DNA from: a bacterium
Lineage (GTDB): Bacteria > Elusimicrobiota > Elusimicrobia > UBA1565 > UBA9628
Length of the DNA: 64,000 bases
Reading direction: 5' to 3'
Assembly: GCA_021822495.1 (NCBI GenBank)
Contig: JAKAQO010000003.1
Coordinates: 1 to 64,000 of the forward strand
A program made the position numbers and the translations under genes. Below, one piece after another: positions 19,790-50,077 of the stretch. Position 1 is the first letter of the stretch. Every line of letters begins with the position of its first letter. The notes under the pieces are model-generated. The model ran no database searches. It was given only the letters and a program-made list of their open reading frames with translations, and was not told the origin of the DNA.

Positions 19790-20782
19790 ATGAGTGGTTC
19801 AGTCTTTGTCCTAGGCTCCGGTTTTTCCAAGGAAGTTGCAGGGTATCCTACTTTACAAGAGCTCTCACTAGAGATTGGGAAATGGATTACCGAATGCAAC
19901 GAGCCCGAAGCCAATTTCATAAAAAATAACGTTTCAAACGAAATCCAAAACAATCTAGAACATTTGCTGTCATATTTATGGATCGAACAACCATGGCACG
20001 ACGTGATTGATCAAATCCGTGCCAAGGCGGCTTATGTATTCGTAACACGACAGCTTCAAAATATATTCGCAAGTCGCAAGGTTCCTGATTTTAACGATTC
20101 ACATCTCGCTCTCGCAAAATCCTGGGATAAAAGTAGAAGCATGTTGATTACGTTTAATTATGACACAGTTATTGAGAAATTAGCCCTACAATTAGGAAAA
20201 GTCGACTTGCTTAGCGATTTATATTGCGTAGCGGTTGCTCCGCTCCATTCGCGCAACCAGGGTTTTGGACACGGAACTATCATTAAACCCAAATTTCACC
20301 TCCTTAAACTGCATGGTTCTCTAAATTGGTTTTACACAGGTGATGCCAGCTATGCAGGCCAGCCAATTTATTATACACACTCAAGCCAACTGCAACTTCC
20401 AGAAGAGCATCAAGACCTTGCGCCCATTATCATTCCTCCTGTCATGGACAAAAACCGATTCTATTTTCATAACGCCCTTAAGCATCAATGGCGTTTGGCT
20501 AAAAAATCTATCCAAGAGGCAGAACATGTATTTTTTATTGGATACTCCATCCCTTCAACAGATTTTTCAATCCAGTTTTTCCTTAAGGAAGCTTTTATGC
20601 AGAGCAAAGCCAAAGTCTTTGTGATTGTGAAAGAATCCGATAGCGAGCAAGCAAATGAAATTAAGGTGCGTTACGAAAAGATTTTTAAGGGCGGTTTAGT
20701 CCAATTTGAATTTAAAAATGCCACTAGCCCGTCACTTACATGGATTCAAGACAACCTAAACAAATTGAACATAAACAAATGA
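19790..20782 (+). CDS. SIR2-like (sirtuin-fold) defence-associated protein
   Basis: 330 residues. SIR2-like proteins in defence islands usually bind NAD and many degrade it during phage infection. The fold markers are visible: nucleotide-binding VFVLGSGFSKE (residues 6-16), TFNYDTVIEK (F122-N-Y-D125), the active-site-like KLHGSLNW with H175, and the C-terminal FIGYSIPSTDFS. No second effector or sensor domain is fused. Start: ATG with GGAGGTG nine bases upstream, a stronger ribosome site than in most host genes here. The stop overlaps the lipoate ligase ATG (ATGA), although the two functions are unrelated. Confidence 0.75.
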   Translation: MSGSVFVLGSGFSKEVAGYPTLQELSLEIGKWITECNEPEANFIKNNVSNEIQNNLEHLLSYLWIEQPWHDVIDQIRAKAAYVFVTRQLQNIFASRKVPDFNDSHLALAKSWDKSRSMLITFNYDTVIEKLALQLGKVDLLSDLYCVAVAPLHSRNQGFGHGTIIKPKFHLLKLHGSLNWFYTGDASYAGQPIYYTHSSQLQLPEEHQDLAPIIIPPVMDKNRFYFHNALKHQWRLAKKSIQEAEHVFFIGYSIPSTDFSIQFFLKEAFMQSKAKVFVIVKESDSEQANEIKVRYEKIFKGGLVQFEFKNATSPSLTWIQDNLNKLNINK

Positions 20783-21513
20783 AACTTAGCGAAGACGAAC
20801 TCTTGAAAAAACCCGCCGTGGAATTAGGGACTGTCCCCATTTCCCGGACGGGGCTCGACGTTTTTTCTCAAATGGCCTTGGACGAGGCCGCGCTTCTTTT
20901 TTCTCCCAAGGAAAGTCTGACTCTGCGCTTTTATTCGTGGTCGGGCCCGGCAGCGACCTTTGGGCGGCATCAATCTTTTCAATTTATCGAACAAGAGCTA
21001 AAGAAAACCGGAAAACCTCATCTTCCCTGCGCGCGGCGGATCACGGGCGGGGGTCTCGTCTTTCACGGAGAAGACATCACATTTTCCCTGACTTTCCCAT
21101 GGAGCGATTTTACCCCTCCTTCTCAAATTTATCAAAGGCTTCATTCTTTGATAGAACTTCAACTCGCCAAGGAAGGCATTTCTCTTAATTTAAAGACTGA
21201 ATCTTCCGCATTGATGGGGCTCAACAAGGTCTGTTTTTCCACACCCGAAAAATCCGATCTGATAACCCCGGCGGGAAAGAAAATTTTAGGCGGGGCTCTC
21301 TGCCGGAAAAACAAACGCGGCCTCTATCAAGGTTCGCTTGAGGCTTCTCTCATTTCTCTTTCCCCGCTTCAAATTGAACGAGCCATTAATGACGCCGTTT
21401 CGCTTTTTGGCGAGAAAGAACCGGAAAAAAAATTTGATTTTATCTCCACGGAAAAATTGCGATCTCTCGTCGAAAAATATCAGTCTGATGAATGGCGTCT
21501 TCGCGTTTCTTGA
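20779..21513 (+). CDS. lplA: Lipoate-protein ligase A family protein
   Basis: 244 residues from the ATG at 20779, which overlaps the SIR2-like stop; an in-frame upstream ATG at 20740 lies within that gene. The family attaches lipoate or octanoate to lysines of carrier proteins. Signatures: QMALDEAALLF, RRITGGGLVFHGEDITFSL (about residues 87-105) and the ligand lysine KILGGALCR. The likely target here is GcvH, whose operon ends 3.5 kb upstream. The first about 20 residues are unconserved and include a palindromic GGGACTGTCCCC (GTVPIS in protein). The native start may therefore have been remodelled at the island junction. Confidence 0.85.
   Translation: MKLSEDELLKKPAVELGTVPISRTGLDVFSQMALDEAALLFSPKESLTLRFYSWSGPAATFGRHQSFQFIEQELKKTGKPHLPCARRITGGGLVFHGEDITFSLTFPWSDFTPPSQIYQRLHSLIELQLAKEGISLNLKTESSALMGLNKVCFSTPEKSDLITPAGKKILGGALCRKNKRGLYQGSLEASLISLSPLQIERAINDAVSLFGEKEPEKKFDFISTEKLRSLVEKYQSDEWRLRVS
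20827..20838 (+). repeat. Degenerate single copy of the GGGGAC palindrome
   Basis: GGGACTGTCCCC is the core of the paired repeat found at 34.0 and 46.2 kb, here preceded by TTA instead of an A-run and followed by ATTTCCC. It encodes GTVPIS at the N-terminus of the lipoate ligase, next to the defence-island edge. Confidence 0.5.
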
Positions 21514-34008: not shown

Positions 34009-34018
34009 GATTTTAATC

Positions 34019-34077
34019 AAAGGGGACAGTCCCCTTTTTCACAGCATTCTATCAAAAAAGGGGACTGTCCCCTTTTT
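34019..34077. repeat. Paired GGGGAC palindromes in inverted orientation (intergenic)
   Basis: Copy 1 (34019-34038) has core GGGGACAGTCCCC followed by a T-run; copy 2 (34054-34077) has core GGGGACTGTCCCC with an A-run before and a T-run after. The cores are reverse complements, separated by about 15 bases. The pair fills the gap between marC and the barrel-protein gene and could also act as a bidirectional terminator. The same unit occurs at 46205-46273. Confidence 0.85.
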
Positions 34078-45365: not shown

Positions 45366-47756
45366 TTAAGACAAGGCCGTCATCCAAACAGTTTTAAATT
45401 CCAGATATCTTCGCATCCAGGAGCGACCCTGAGCCTGGGAACTGGCCCAATCGGCAGGGTCATGAACCCAGGTCCGCTTCATGTTGCTCGCGGACAATTC
45501 CTCGATTTTTTTAGCCAACTCTTGAGTTCCCGAGAAATCAATCCCCGAAACAGCCCGGTGTTCCGCCAAAATAGGCGAAAGCTCTTCTGATTTCCCCGTG
45601 ACGATATTGACCACTCCCGCCGGCATATCAGAAGCGTCTAGGACCTCAATTAAAATAGCGGCGGCCAATGGATATTTTTCCGAAGGGACCGCAATCACTG
45701 CGTTTCCGAAAGCAATGGCCGGAAAAATCTTGGACACAAGAGCTAAAAGAGACGGAGTCTCGGGAGAAACAAGGCCCACAACGCCCATCGGTTCCGGATA
45801 GGTAATATTGAAATCGGTCTGCGTGACTGGATTGACGTTTCCCGTGTATTTGTCGGTCCAACCGGCATAATAAAGAATGCGGTTGAGACTGAGAGCGACC
45901 TCTTTTTGAGCCAAAGACCAATCGCAGCCGGTTTGAGCCGTCAATATCTGAACCAATTCCGAAGACCGGCTTTGAAAAATCTCAGCCGTGCGGTAGAGAA
46001 TCTGCCCACGCAAATAGGCCGTTGATTTTGCCCAGGCAACTTGAGCCTTTAAAGCCGCTTCGACCGCGTCGCGAATATCTTTTCTCGATCCAAGCGGCAC
46101 ATCCGCCAATAATTTCCCTTCATTGGAGAAAACTTTATAGTAGCGGCTGGATTCCGAGCGAACCTGTTTTCCCCCGATAAGCATTTTCGGAGTTTTCCAG
46201 ATGGAAAAGGGGACTGTCCCTTTTTCCGTTTTCTCTGGGGGATAAACGAGAGAAAAGGGGACAGTCCCCTTTTCTTCGAGATGGACGTATTCCCAGAGCC
46301 CCTCGGGGCCGCCTTCCCGGCCAAAACCGCTTTCCTTAAAACCGCCAAACTCCGCTGCCGCGTCGAATTTATTGGCGCCGTTTCCCCAAATCGTGCCCGC
46401 CTTAACGCCTCGAGCGACTTCAATCATTTTCGCGACGTCTTTCGTCCAAACGCTGGCCGCTAAGCCGTAAAAAGTATTGTTGGCCAGTTCTACCGCTTCT
46501 TCTTTTGTCCGAAACGTCATCGCGGATAAAACCGGGCCAAAAATTTCTTCCCGCGCGATGGTATGAGAAGTCTCAACCTCGGTAAACAAGGTTGGCGGGA
46601 AAAAGAAACCGTCTTTCGGGCAAGAGAAAGGCGACTGATATTTGACCGCGCCTTCTTTTTCTCCAATTTGAACGTAGCGTTCGATGGTTTCAAGTTGTCT
46701 CTTGGAATTAATCGCCCCCATATCAACATTCTTGTCCAAGGGATCGCCAATGCGAATTTTTCGCATCCGCTCTTTAAGAAGGCGGGTAAACTTGGGAGCG
46801 ATGCTTTCCTGAAGCAACAGGCGAGAACCCGCGCAGCAAACCTGTCCCTGATTAAAGAAGATGCCGTCCACAATGCCTTCGACCGCCTCATAAAGGGGCG
46901 CGTCCTCAAAAACAATCGTGGGCGATTTTCCGCCCAGTTCCAAGGAAAGTTTCTTTCCACTTCCCGCCGTCATTTTGCGGATGAGTTTTCCAACCTCGGT
47001 TGAACCGGTAAAAGCGATTTTATCAATCCCGGGATGAGAAACGATCCACTGCCCGGTCTTTCCAAACCCAGTCACGATATTGACCACGCCTTTAGGAATG
47101 CCCACTTCCTGGATAATTTCTGCCAAATGAAGCGCCGAAAGAGAGGTTGTTTCAGCTGTCTTTAAAACGACCGTATTTCCGGCGGCCAAGGCCGGAGCGA
47201 TTTTCCAAGCCGCCATGAGAAGCGGAAAATTCCAGGGGATAATCTGGCCAACGACTCCTAGCGGAGAAACATTCATTCCCGGAAAAGCTTCTTCTAGTTT
47301 ATCGGCCCAACCGGCGTAATAAAAGAAATGCCGGGCGGCAAGAGGAATATCAATATCGCGGGTTTCCCGAATCGGCTTTCCGTTGTCTAAAGTCTCGATC
47401 ACAGCCAGTTCCCGAGCGCGCTCCAAAATCACCCGAGCAATGGCGTAGATGAGCCGTGCGCGCTCTTGAGACGGAGTTTTAGACCAGTTTTTAAAAGCTT
47501 CCTTAGCGGCAGAAACGGCCAGGTCCACGTCTTTTTCGCCCGCCTCGGCCACTTTTGCCAAAACACGGCCATTGGCCGGATTAATTGAGTCGAAATATTT
47601 CCCAGAAACCGGCGGAACCCATTCTCCTCCAATAAAGAGTTCGTATTTGGGTTTAATTTTGACATGAGAAATAGATTCCGGCGCCGGGCCGTATTCAGCC
47701 CAGGAAACATTGCCGCGTTTTTTTTGATTCAAAGGAGCCTTGATTTGTTTAATCAT
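45366..47756 (-). CDS. ALDH16-like two-domain aldehyde dehydrogenase
   Basis: 796 residues. The first domain (about 30-490) is a complete NAD(P)-dependent ALDH: VGQIIPWNFPLLM, FTGSTEVGK, LELGGKSP (general base Glu) and catalytic Cys307 in GQVCCAGSR. The second domain (about 520-780) repeats the ALDH cofactor fold (VVGLVSPETPSLLAL, GVVNIVTG) but has no catalytic Cys or Glu. This layout matches ALDH16-type proteins. The linker (about 495-518) contains two KGTVPFS copies encoded by the GGGGAC palindrome pair. It follows tpiA, pduL and deoC, so acetaldehyde from DeoC is the likely substrate. Confidence 0.85.
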   Translation of the reverse strand: MIKQIKAPLNQKKRGNVSWAEYGPAPESISHVKIKPKYELFIGGEWVPPVSGKYFDSINPANGRVLAKVAEAGEKDVDLAVSAAKEAFKNWSKTPSQERARLIYAIARVILERARELAVIETLDNGKPIRETRDIDIPLAARHFFYYAGWADKLEEAFPGMNVSPLGVVGQIIPWNFPLLMAAWKIAPALAAGNTVVLKTAETTSLSALHLAEIIQEVGIPKGVVNIVTGFGKTGQWIVSHPGIDKIAFTGSTEVGKLIRKMTAGSGKKLSLELGGKSPTIVFEDAPLYEAVEGIVDGIFFNQGQVCCAGSRLLLQESIAPKFTRLLKERMRKIRIGDPLDKNVDMGAINSKRQLETIERYVQIGEKEGAVKYQSPFSCPKDGFFFPPTLFTEVETSHTIAREEIFGPVLSAMTFRTKEEAVELANNTFYGLAASVWTKDVAKMIEVARGVKAGTIWGNGANKFDAAAEFGGFKESGFGREGGPEGLWEYVHLEEKGTVPFSLVYPPEKTEKGTVPFSIWKTPKMLIGGKQVRSESSRYYKVFSNEGKLLADVPLGSRKDIRDAVEAALKAQVAWAKSTAYLRGQILYRTAEIFQSRSSELVQILTAQTGCDWSLAQKEVALSLNRILYYAGWTDKYTGNVNPVTQTDFNITYPEPMGVVGLVSPETPSLLALVSKIFPAIAFGNAVIAVPSEKYPLAAAILIEVLDASDMPAGVVNIVTGKSEELSPILAEHRAVSGIDFSGTQELAKKIEELSASNMKRTWVHDPADWASSQAQGRSWMRRYLEFKTVWMTALS
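46205..46273. repeat. Paired GGGGAC palindromes inside the ALDH reading frame
   Basis: Copy 1 (46205-46225) has core GGGGACTGTCCC, one C short; copy 2 (46253-46273) has core GGGGACAGTCCCC. They are inverted relative to each other with about 28 bases between, the same design as at 34019-34077. Read on the minus strand both encode KGTVPFS, and the insertion keeps the frame, falling exactly between the two ALDH domains. Confidence 0.85.
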
Positions 47757-47759
47757 GAT

Positions 47760-48701
47760 TCACCCTTTCGGAATATAGTCGTAAGATTCGTATTGGCCGG
47801 TGTTAAGATGATGAAGCTGCCGCGCGATATCATCAAGTAAAGAGCTTGCGCCAAAGCGGAATAAATCCGGCGTCAGCCAATCATCTCCCACCGTTTCCTT
47901 GACCAAGGCCAACCAGTGAAGAGCTTCTTTCGCCTGCCGAATTCCGCCTGCGGGTTTGTGCCCGATGTGATAGCCAGTCCGGAGATAAAAGTCCTCGATG
48001 GCGTTGAGCATGACCAAGCTCACCGGCAAGGTTGCGGAAACCCCAATTTTTCCGGTTGAGGTCTTGATGAAGTCCGCGCCCGCCTGCATCGCGATTTCAC
48101 TTGCCGTCCAGACGTTTTGAAGTTCGCCCAGTTCCCCGGTTTCTAAAATTACCTTAAGATGCGCCTCTCCGCACGCTTCCCGAATCATGGCAATTTCGTC
48201 ATAAACACGGGAATAATCGCCTCTCAAAAACGCCCCACGATTAATGACCATGTCGATTTCATCGGCTCCGGAGGCGACCAAGGCTTTTGTCTCCTGAATT
48301 TTGAGAGGAAGCGGCACCTGCCCATGCGGAAAAGCGGTTGAGACCGCGGCGACTTTCACCGCGCTTCCTTCTAAAACTTTTTTCGCTTCGCTGACAAAAT
48401 TGCCATAGACGCAGACCGCGGCGACTTGAATTTCAGGCTCATCCGCCAAAGGCCTCAAGGCTTTTTGGCAAAGACGCCTCACGCGATGGGGAGTATCACT
48501 GCCTTCCAAAGTAGTCAAGTCGATCATGGATACCGCGTGGAGAAGCCAATTTTTTTGATGTTCCTTTTTTGGATTCCTGGTTTTTGTGATTTTGGAAACG
48601 CGGTCATAAACGCCGGTCGTATCTACCTGCAAGCGGCGCAAAACCTCCAGGTCCAGACGATGAATGGGATTGCGGCGAGTTTTGGTCATGGTCTCAGTCA
48701 T
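47760..48701 (-). CDS. deoC: Deoxyribose-phosphate aldolase
   Basis: 313 residues from the ATG at 48701, one base from the pduL stop; longer upstream frames lie inside pduL. Class I aldolase splitting 2-deoxyribose-5-phosphate into acetaldehyde and glyceraldehyde-3-phosphate. The Schiff-base lysine is in FIKTSTGK and the second active lysine in GHKPAGGIR; ADEIDMVINRG is also typical. Longer than the bacterial norm (about 220-260) because of an N-terminal extension. The aldehyde can go to the ALDH encoded next, and the triose to TpiA. Confidence 0.94.
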   Translation of the reverse strand: MTETMTKTRRNPIHRLDLEVLRRLQVDTTGVYDRVSKITKTRNPKKEHQKNWLLHAVSMIDLTTLEGSDTPHRVRRLCQKALRPLADEPEIQVAAVCVYGNFVSEAKKVLEGSAVKVAAVSTAFPHGQVPLPLKIQETKALVASGADEIDMVINRGAFLRGDYSRVYDEIAMIREACGEAHLKVILETGELGELQNVWTASEIAMQAGADFIKTSTGKIGVSATLPVSLVMLNAIEDFYLRTGYHIGHKPAGGIRQAKEALHWLALVKETVGDDWLTPDLFRFGASSLLDDIARQLHHLNTGQYESYDYIPKG

Positions 48702-48702
48702 A

Positions 48703-49305
48703 TTATTTCTCGATATAAACGCTGTCTCCGGTTTTAACCCAGGCGGCATTGGCCTCATCAGTGTCAATATGAAATTCCAGACTGTAGTCGTTTGAAATCC
48801 GGCACAAAACGTTGGTGAAAAAAAGTTCCCTGGGGCCGCCAATGCCCGCGCGCACGCGGACAATTTCCCCTTCTTTAATTCCTATCGCCTCCGCCTCGGT
48901 GGGGCTGAAATGAATATGACGACTGGCGATAACCAAGCCTTCTTTGACTTCCAAAACTCCCTTAGGTCCTATGATTTTAACCGGGCTTGAGCCTCCCAAG
49001 TCTCCGGAACCGCGAACCGGCGGGCGAAATCCCAACTGGCTGGCATCGGTTTTCGCGATTTCAACCTGGGTCTTTTTCCGGTGCGGAGCGATCAGACGCA
49101 CGTTTTCGATTTTTCCCTTGGGTCCTTCCAGGTTTACCGTCTCATAACAAGCCCAAAAACCTGGCTGTTTGACGGAACGAAATTTTCGGGGTTCGGTTCC
49201 CGCCCCAAACAGAAAATCCCAATCCGCCTGGCACAAATGGACATGGCGGTTGGAGACGCCTACCGGAATCGGGGTTTCATAGCGCGACTTTAAAGAATCA
49301 GACAT
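48703..49305 (-). CDS. pduL: PduL-type phosphate acyltransferase
   Basis: 200 residues from the ATG at 49305, which overlaps the tpiA stop by eight bases; a longer upstream frame is inside tpiA. Interconverts acyl-CoA and acyl phosphate with zinc. The family histidine motifs are intact: VGVSNRHVHL near residues 18-27 and VIASRHIHFSPTEAEA. PduL enzymes often serve aldehyde-degrading microcompartments. No shell-protein gene or encapsulation peptide is evident here, so a free cytosolic role with acetyl-CoA/acetyl phosphate is assumed. Confidence 0.93.
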   Translation of the reverse strand: MSDSLKSRYETPIPVGVSNRHVHLCQADWDFLFGAGTEPRKFRSVKQPGFWACYETVNLEGPKGKIENVRLIAPHRKKTQVEIAKTDASQLGFRPPVRGSGDLGGSSPVKIIGPKGVLEVKEGLVIASRHIHFSPTEAEAIGIKEGEIVRVRAGIGGPRELFFTNVLCRISNDYSLEFHIDTDEANAAWVKTGDSVYIEK

Positions 49306-50077
49306 GAATTGCCTTCCTAACAAAATTGATAATCCTAACAAAGGATTCGGCCTTGAGGCTATCCCCGCCAACCAAGGCCCCGTCAATATCGGGCTCGGCC
49401 ATCAAGGCGTCAATATTATCCGCTTTAACCGAACCCCCGTAAATGATCCGCGTCTTCTGTGAGAAATCGTGCCCAAAAAAACCCGCCAAGCGGTCACGGA
49501 TAAAATCGTGCATATCCTGAGCTTGATCGGGACTTGCCGTTTTCCCGGTCCCAATGGCCCAAACCGGCTCATAGGCAATGATTAAAGAGCTTAGTTGCGC
49601 GGCTGAAAAACCGGACAAGGCTCCCGCGAGTTGCCTTTCCACGACCTCCCGCGCTTTTTGCGCTTGATGTTCTTCCAATGTTTCTCCCACGCATAAAACG
49701 GGAATAAGAGCCTCATCCAAAACCGCCGCGACCTTTTTATGCAAGGAATCATCCGTCTCTCCAAAAAGGCGCCGCCTTTCGCTGTGTCCCAGCAAAACTG
49801 CCTGACAGCCGGCGTCTCTAAGTTGGGAAGCGGAAACTTCTCCGGTAAAAGCCCCGGATTTTTCCCAAAACGCGTTTTGCGCGCCCAGCCAGATAGAACT
49901 TGAAGAGACAATGTCTTTCACCGCGCTCAAAGCAGTGAAAGGAACAAACAAAGCGACATCACAACCGGCATCTTTTTGAATGGAAGATTTAATCTTTTCG
50001 GCCAAGGCCCTGGATTCGGAAAGGCCAAAGTTCATCTTCCAGTTTCCGGCGATCAAGGGCTTTCGATGAGCGTGCAT
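49298..50077 (-). CDS. tpiA: Triose-phosphate isomerase
   Basis: 259 residues. Interconverts dihydroxyacetone phosphate and glyceraldehyde-3-phosphate. The catalytic set is complete: GNWKMN (Lys), LLGHSERR (His) and AYEPVWAIGTGKTA (Glu), with the phosphate-binding GGSVK and GALVGGDSL. It leads a tightly packed minus-strand operon with pduL, deoC and the ALDH gene; glycolytic use of the DeoC triose fits. The divergent gene at 50174 has its -35 box about 60 bases away. Confidence 0.96.
   Translation of the reverse strand: MHAHRKPLIAGNWKMNFGLSESRALAEKIKSSIQKDAGCDVALFVPFTALSAVKDIVSSSSIWLGAQNAFWEKSGAFTGEVSASQLRDAGCQAVLLGHSERRRLFGETDDSLHKKVAAVLDEALIPVLCVGETLEEHQAQKAREVVERQLAGALSGFSAAQLSSLIIAYEPVWAIGTGKTASPDQAQDMHDFIRDRLAGFFGHDFSQKTRIIYGGSVKADNIDALMAEPDIDGALVGGDSLKAESFVRIINFVRKAIHV

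Follow-up and report, generated by a model that had tools for sequence, protein, structure and literature searches.

An inverted pair of palindromes lies in frame within an ALDH16-like aldehyde dehydrogenase gene in the 64,000-nt stretch of DNA analysed here (the window). This pair is probably a REPIN-like doublet of a RAYT-linked, REP-like family, resident in the interdomain linker of the enzyme from roughly the time when the genus arose, where it is translated as a passenger that the protein tolerates. A broader reading, about which we have somewhat more doubt than confidence, is that RAYT-linked palindromes evolve in concert and in place: old copies would keep their fixed positions while their arms were rewritten to the current type of the species, and the same residues would consequently change in parallel in unrelated proteins of a species (to KGTVPFS, IGTVPIS or LGTVPNS) by a process acting on DNA and not by selection on protein.

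Whether REP families spread by new insertion only or are also homogenised in place is a long-standing question. With dozens of sites shared among five congeners, some of them in conserved genes with exact alignments, in-place homogenisation becomes testable, and the set illustrates that a repeat spread through the genome can determine residues of proteins that are otherwise unrelated.

An inverted palindrome pair in an ALDH16-like gene

The pair is contained in a 796-aa open reading frame on the minus strand (45366-47756). It consists of two inverted copies of the 23-nt palindrome GAAAAGGGGACWGTCCCYTTTTC, at 46204-46226 and 46252-46274, with 96% arm-to-arm complementarity and a 25-nt gap (46227-46251) that forms the loop of the predicted hairpin. 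As the units lie 48 nt (16 codons) apart from start to start, both are read in the same frame and both encode KGTVPFS, at residues 496-502 for the N-terminal unit (unit 1, 46252-46274) and residues 512-518 for the C-terminal unit (unit 2, 46204-46226). The first-pass annotation had described a repeat pair inside the ALDH gene that keeps the reading frame, and this was confirmed. The coding strand of the pair folds with a predicted energy of -40.3 kcal/mol (z -7.0).

Other members of the family are present nearby. With one mismatch allowed, the palindromic core was matched 10 times in the window, compared with 0.43 expected, and none of 100 shuffles reached 10. These matches include a second inverted pair (34016-34077; cores at 34023-34033 and 34061-34071) and a single copy of another arm type (20821-20843, plus strand), which is in frame and encodes ELGTVPIS within a lipoyl-ligase-like open reading frame (20740-21513).

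The host protein has the architecture of ALDH16, a single chain in which a catalytic ALDH half precedes a second, ALDH-like half. Pfam Aldedh matches it in two stretches, and the closest solved relative is the Loktanella ALDH16 (6mvr, with 6mvs and 6mvt), which matches residues 20-792 at 697 bits and shares the full-length two-half architecture, but whose linker, although similar in length, contains no palindrome. The N-terminal catalytic domain (residues 46-492; 46281-47621, minus strand), defined by Pfam and alignment, carries the active-site motif NQGQVCCAGS, with C307/C308 invariant in the alignment. The C-terminal half (residues 520-796; 45369-46199, minus strand) is supported by Pfam and the 6mvr match and is often a separate gene in homologues: of 80 homologues fetched, 68 have the halves as separate neighbouring genes, as called from frame and stops between the halves and not from annotation. 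Between the domains lies a linker (residues 492-519; 46200-46283, minus strand) that is hypervariable among species. Adjoining the gene, at 47760-50077, are genes whose translations resemble those of deoC, a PduL-like phosphotransacylase and triosephosphate isomerase, which suggests an aldehyde-handling neighbourhood as judged from these translations.

A dispersed palindrome family with a RAYT

The palindromes belong to a large, dispersed family. Exact GGGACAGTCCC sites number 142 across the genome, whereas the reversed pattern, used as a control, gave none. At the centre of the family unit is the core GGGACWGTCCC, a near-perfect 11-nt palindrome, which occurs 142, 100, 76, 23 and 13 times in the five congeners (142 in this genome, 100 in G004 and 23 in G003). 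Most of 112 other relatives have between 0 and 5 copies. High counts were seen separately in genera beyond this one within the same order or family (G042, 152; G043, 36; G038, 34; G019, 25). All genomes are drafts of 80-97% completeness.

We examined site contexts in the stretches around the first 100 listed of the 142 sites. The consensus of 99 copies from this genome has symmetric arms and carries neither GTAG nor CGTC nor any other one-sided tag; on the basis of these symmetric arms and the missing GTAG tag, we call the family REP-like and not a GTAG REP. Open reading frames of at least 90 aa, called mechanically and in many cases possibly spurious, contain 69 of the 99 copies. Among close neighbours in this genome, 15 of 17 are inverted with a spacing of 26-48 nt, and many copies are singlets. 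Inverted doublets, regular spacing and the capacity to form a hairpin (z -7.0 for the ALDH pair) are the features by which REPINs are recognized.

One of the two Y1 transposase genes in this genome passes the NCBIfam model REP_Tyr_transpos (82.4 bits; cut-off, 80). This RAYT gene (L204:1482-2156 on contig 11, minus strand) has palindromes on both sides and within its own coding sequence, where they encode KRGQSPF and, twice, KKGTVPFF. Its syntenic counterpart in G002, at 79 bits just below the 80-bit cut-off, is likewise flanked by palindromes. Thus, of the features of a REPtron, many dispersed palindrome copies and a RAYT flanked by repeats are present, and the end tag is absent. No RAYT was found in the assemblies of G001, G003 and G004, a weak absence given that these are drafts; even so, G003 has 23 copies of the palindrome and G004 has 100. 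Arms of the AAAAR type dominate in the two genomes where a RAYT was detected and do not in the three where none was.

In the route that we propose, the RAYT would have moved the element as a single-stranded hairpin, and the element would have entered the ALDH linker by insertion. Such an insertion may have survived because the frame is open through both units and the linker presumably tolerates any sequence. The arms might then have been rewritten, either in place or by re-insertion, to the type current in each genome.

The linker tolerates repeats

The pair adds no net length to the enzyme. Measured between the conserved motifs GLWEYV and WKTPKML, linkers that contain the pair are 28 aa (this genome), 25 aa (G003) and 28 aa (G004) long, compared with 29 aa (G001) and 36 aa (G002) in congeners without it and 34 aa (G056) and 31 aa (G047) in members of the same class without it. 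The expectation from the first-pass annotation that the repeat lengthens the linker, and that orthologues without it have a shorter one, was therefore rejected. That annotation had also named the same linker in distant homologues without the palindrome as evidence against its reading; linkers of similar length were indeed found without the palindrome, but their sequence is not the same.

Its view of the linker as tolerant was borne out. In addition to being variable, the linker is predicted to be disordered, with pLDDT <50 at residues 497-520 in an AlphaFold2 model built from an alignment of ten sequences. In more distant members of the class it contains unrelated tandem repeats, of the heptamers TCAGGGG and AACCCTC in G055 and of AAGTCCG and CCGCAAC in G056. 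As other class members hold unrelated repeats there and the halves are often separate genes, the site behaves as a repeat-tolerant junction, which supports the idea of a tolerant linker.

We infer that the pair entered the ALDH gene by insertion, a weaker statement than the 'direct evidence' of insertion that had been claimed. No empty ALDH site was found among the homologues, because the linker cannot be aligned outside the genus; in most distant homologues the halves are separate genes, and in G055 a contig break falls within the linker. The linkers of G001 and G002 were searched for a remnant of the palindrome. The best matches (14/23 and 15/23) were reached by 455 and 167 of 2,000 shuffles, respectively, and we do not claim one.

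Shared sites carry species-specific arms

The same ALDH linker holds the pair in G003 and G004, that is, in three of the five congeners, and in all three unit 1 begins four residues after WEYV. An ALDH tree computed with the linker left out places this genome beside G003 and puts G004 together with G001 and G002, such that carriers of the pair fall in both groups. The simplest reading is a single gain before the genus split followed by loss in G001 and G002, with two separate gains as the less simple course. Sharing of this kind is common. Among 78 surveyed site clusters of this genome, 45 are matched by a palindrome at the corresponding position in one or more congeners, 34 of them in G004. 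The search demanded an exact core, so perfect conservation of the core at shared sites holds by construction and the information lies in the arms.

Arm types differ between species. AAAAR accounts for 77% of arms in this genome and 70% in G002, AAATR (50%) is the commonest type in G003, and AGATR (32%) and ARTTR (37%) are frequent in G004. These dialects extend to shared positions: at the 34 sites common to this genome and G004, 86% of the arms in this genome but only 18% of the G004 arms are AAAAR, an excess of 54 to 1 when counted by arm, although arms that share a site are not independent of each other. Where the flanks can be aligned without gaps, at 14 of these sites, the copy in this genome was more AAAAR-like at nine and less so at none (p = 0.004). 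At the other 20 of the 34 the immediate flanks are unalignable, so at some of these the two species may each have acquired a copy in the same spacer independently. Some sites have AAAAR arms in all species.

In proteins, the dialect appears as a change of residues at matching places. The ALDH linker reads KGTVPFS, KGTVPIS or LGTVPNS according to species, a radical SAM protein reads KGTVPFS, MGTVPIS or LGTVPNS, and a protein without a Pfam match reads KGTVPFS or IGTVPIS.

At alignable sites, identity is 67% in the arms and 76-77% in the flanks; the arms change only modestly faster than their surroundings. The likeness of orthologous arms between this genome and G004 (0.54) is barely above that of shuffled pairs (0.50) and below that of paralogues within this genome (0.77), as expected of concerted evolution. 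Closer pairs (G001-G002 and G004-G002) retain more orthologue memory of the site. In-place conversion and repeated re-insertion both fit the species dialect at shared sites.

Alternative explanations

The linker is variable, which would suit a coincidental, low-complexity sequence arising by point mutation, but such a chance origin, to which we assign next to no probability, is refuted by the copy number (142 compared with 0 for the control) and by the 100 shuffles, none of which reached the window count. Domestication, in which selection would maintain the segment encoded by the palindromes as a functional spacer within the enzyme, seems to us very improbable. The frame is kept in three congeners and linker length is confined to 25-36 aa across genus and class, as a selected spacer would have it, but the sequence is not conserved between the three carriers, G001 and G002 have no detectable palindrome, the segment is predicted to be disordered, and the same peptide occurs in unrelated proteins and in the RAYT itself. 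The term 'domesticated', used in the first-pass annotation, is thus unsupported, as is a function for the KGTVPFS peptide.

The dialects could have been produced without any change of arms in place, if each species had received independent insertions into the same hotspots. This is rather unlikely but deserves the most weight among the alternatives, as it would give species-typical arms at shared sites with no conversion at all and agrees with the unalignable flanks at 20 of 34 sites shared with G004. Exactly alignable sites count against it, as at L181:4236, where this genome and G004 align gaplessly over two units and the spacer and insertion would have had to recur at the same base in both species, as does the orthologue memory in the closer pairs. 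Alternatively, the motif could be a recognition sequence peculiar to each species, for example a DNA uptake sequence, with a host DNA-binding protein and recombination, and not transposition, keeping the copies at shared sites and setting their dialect. The dialects seen where positions are shared, the intermediates one step apart that link arm types and the permissive nature of the coding positions do recall the uptake-sequence dialects described in Neisseriaceae (PMC3630211); the motif, however, is a palindrome, often in inverted doublets 24-48 nt apart, in two species its copies cluster at and within the RAYT gene, and they number no more than about 140, which makes such a role improbable. 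Our preferred reading remains a RAYT-linked doublet carried as a passenger.

Relation to known repeat families

REPs within genes are known. Di Nocera et al. 2013 (PMC3733652) describe REPs in open reading frames, including different REPs at approximately the same site of recB in two Xanthomonas species. With the intragenic REPs and RPEs covered there (Rickettsia RPE and Opitutus terrae GTAG REPs), the present family has in common in-frame palindromic repeats in unrelated proteins, often as dimers encoding 20-30 aa. It differs from them in having no GTAG or CGTC consensus tag, in its near-perfect 11-nt palindromic centre, and in that several intragenic sites are common to congeners and carry species-specific arms. 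Like the REPINs of Bertels and Rainey 2011 (PMC3116915), it has two inverted units with a spacer, a predicted hairpin and a RAYT in the genome. By contrast, the SBW25 REPs are almost entirely extragenic (14 16-mers overlap genes), whereas many copies here lie in open reading frames, and here dialects of the arms surround a fixed core.

The closest precedent for the dialects is the 'orthoswitch' of REP classes (Nunvar et al. 2013, PMC3686654), in which related strains have different REP variants with orthologous RAYTs and abundance tracks the RAYT. In that model the new variant spreads and the existing copies are left to decay, whereas here the new variant is found at the old positions. Gene conversion of REPs was proposed in the title of a 1988 review, as listed in PMC3116915. 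Intragenic REPs and REP class switching are thus already known from these sources, and what is added here is that in-frame sites which are orthologous between species follow each species' dialect, whether through conversion or through re-insertion. The open-access literature, seen in part, yielded no description of arms that differ by species at a large number of orthologous sites, some of them in frame, and at the level of titles and abstract openings nothing on point on palindromic repeats in Elusimicrobia; open-access searches for the core or the KGTVPFS peptide returned nothing relevant.

Palindromes in other proteins

The suggestion to look for KGTVPFS elsewhere in the genome proved productive, as the peptide was found in further, unrelated proteins: an AMP-binding enzyme, a 3-hydroxyacyl-CoA dehydrogenase (near its start) and arginyl-tRNA synthetase (in its DALR domain). 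Two related peptides, likewise encoded by palindromes, are MGTVPYS at the start of an FGGY kinase and the ELGTVPIS of the lipoyl-ligase-like protein.

In the AMP-binding enzyme (L174:916-2598, plus strand), 15 repeat-encoded residues directly precede a conserved motif, and G003 (L328) has four, SGTD, in their stead. We did not accept this as a clean empty site, as either the 15 residues or SGTD may be ancestral. In the arginyl-tRNA synthetase (L193:5882-7546, minus strand), the palindrome lies in a loop of the DALR domain, and at the same place G003 (L337) carries an insertion of unrelated, repeat-like sequence, VTPTKVGVQSSDLLDSGFRRNDE, which again suggests that repeats accumulate in tolerant loops.
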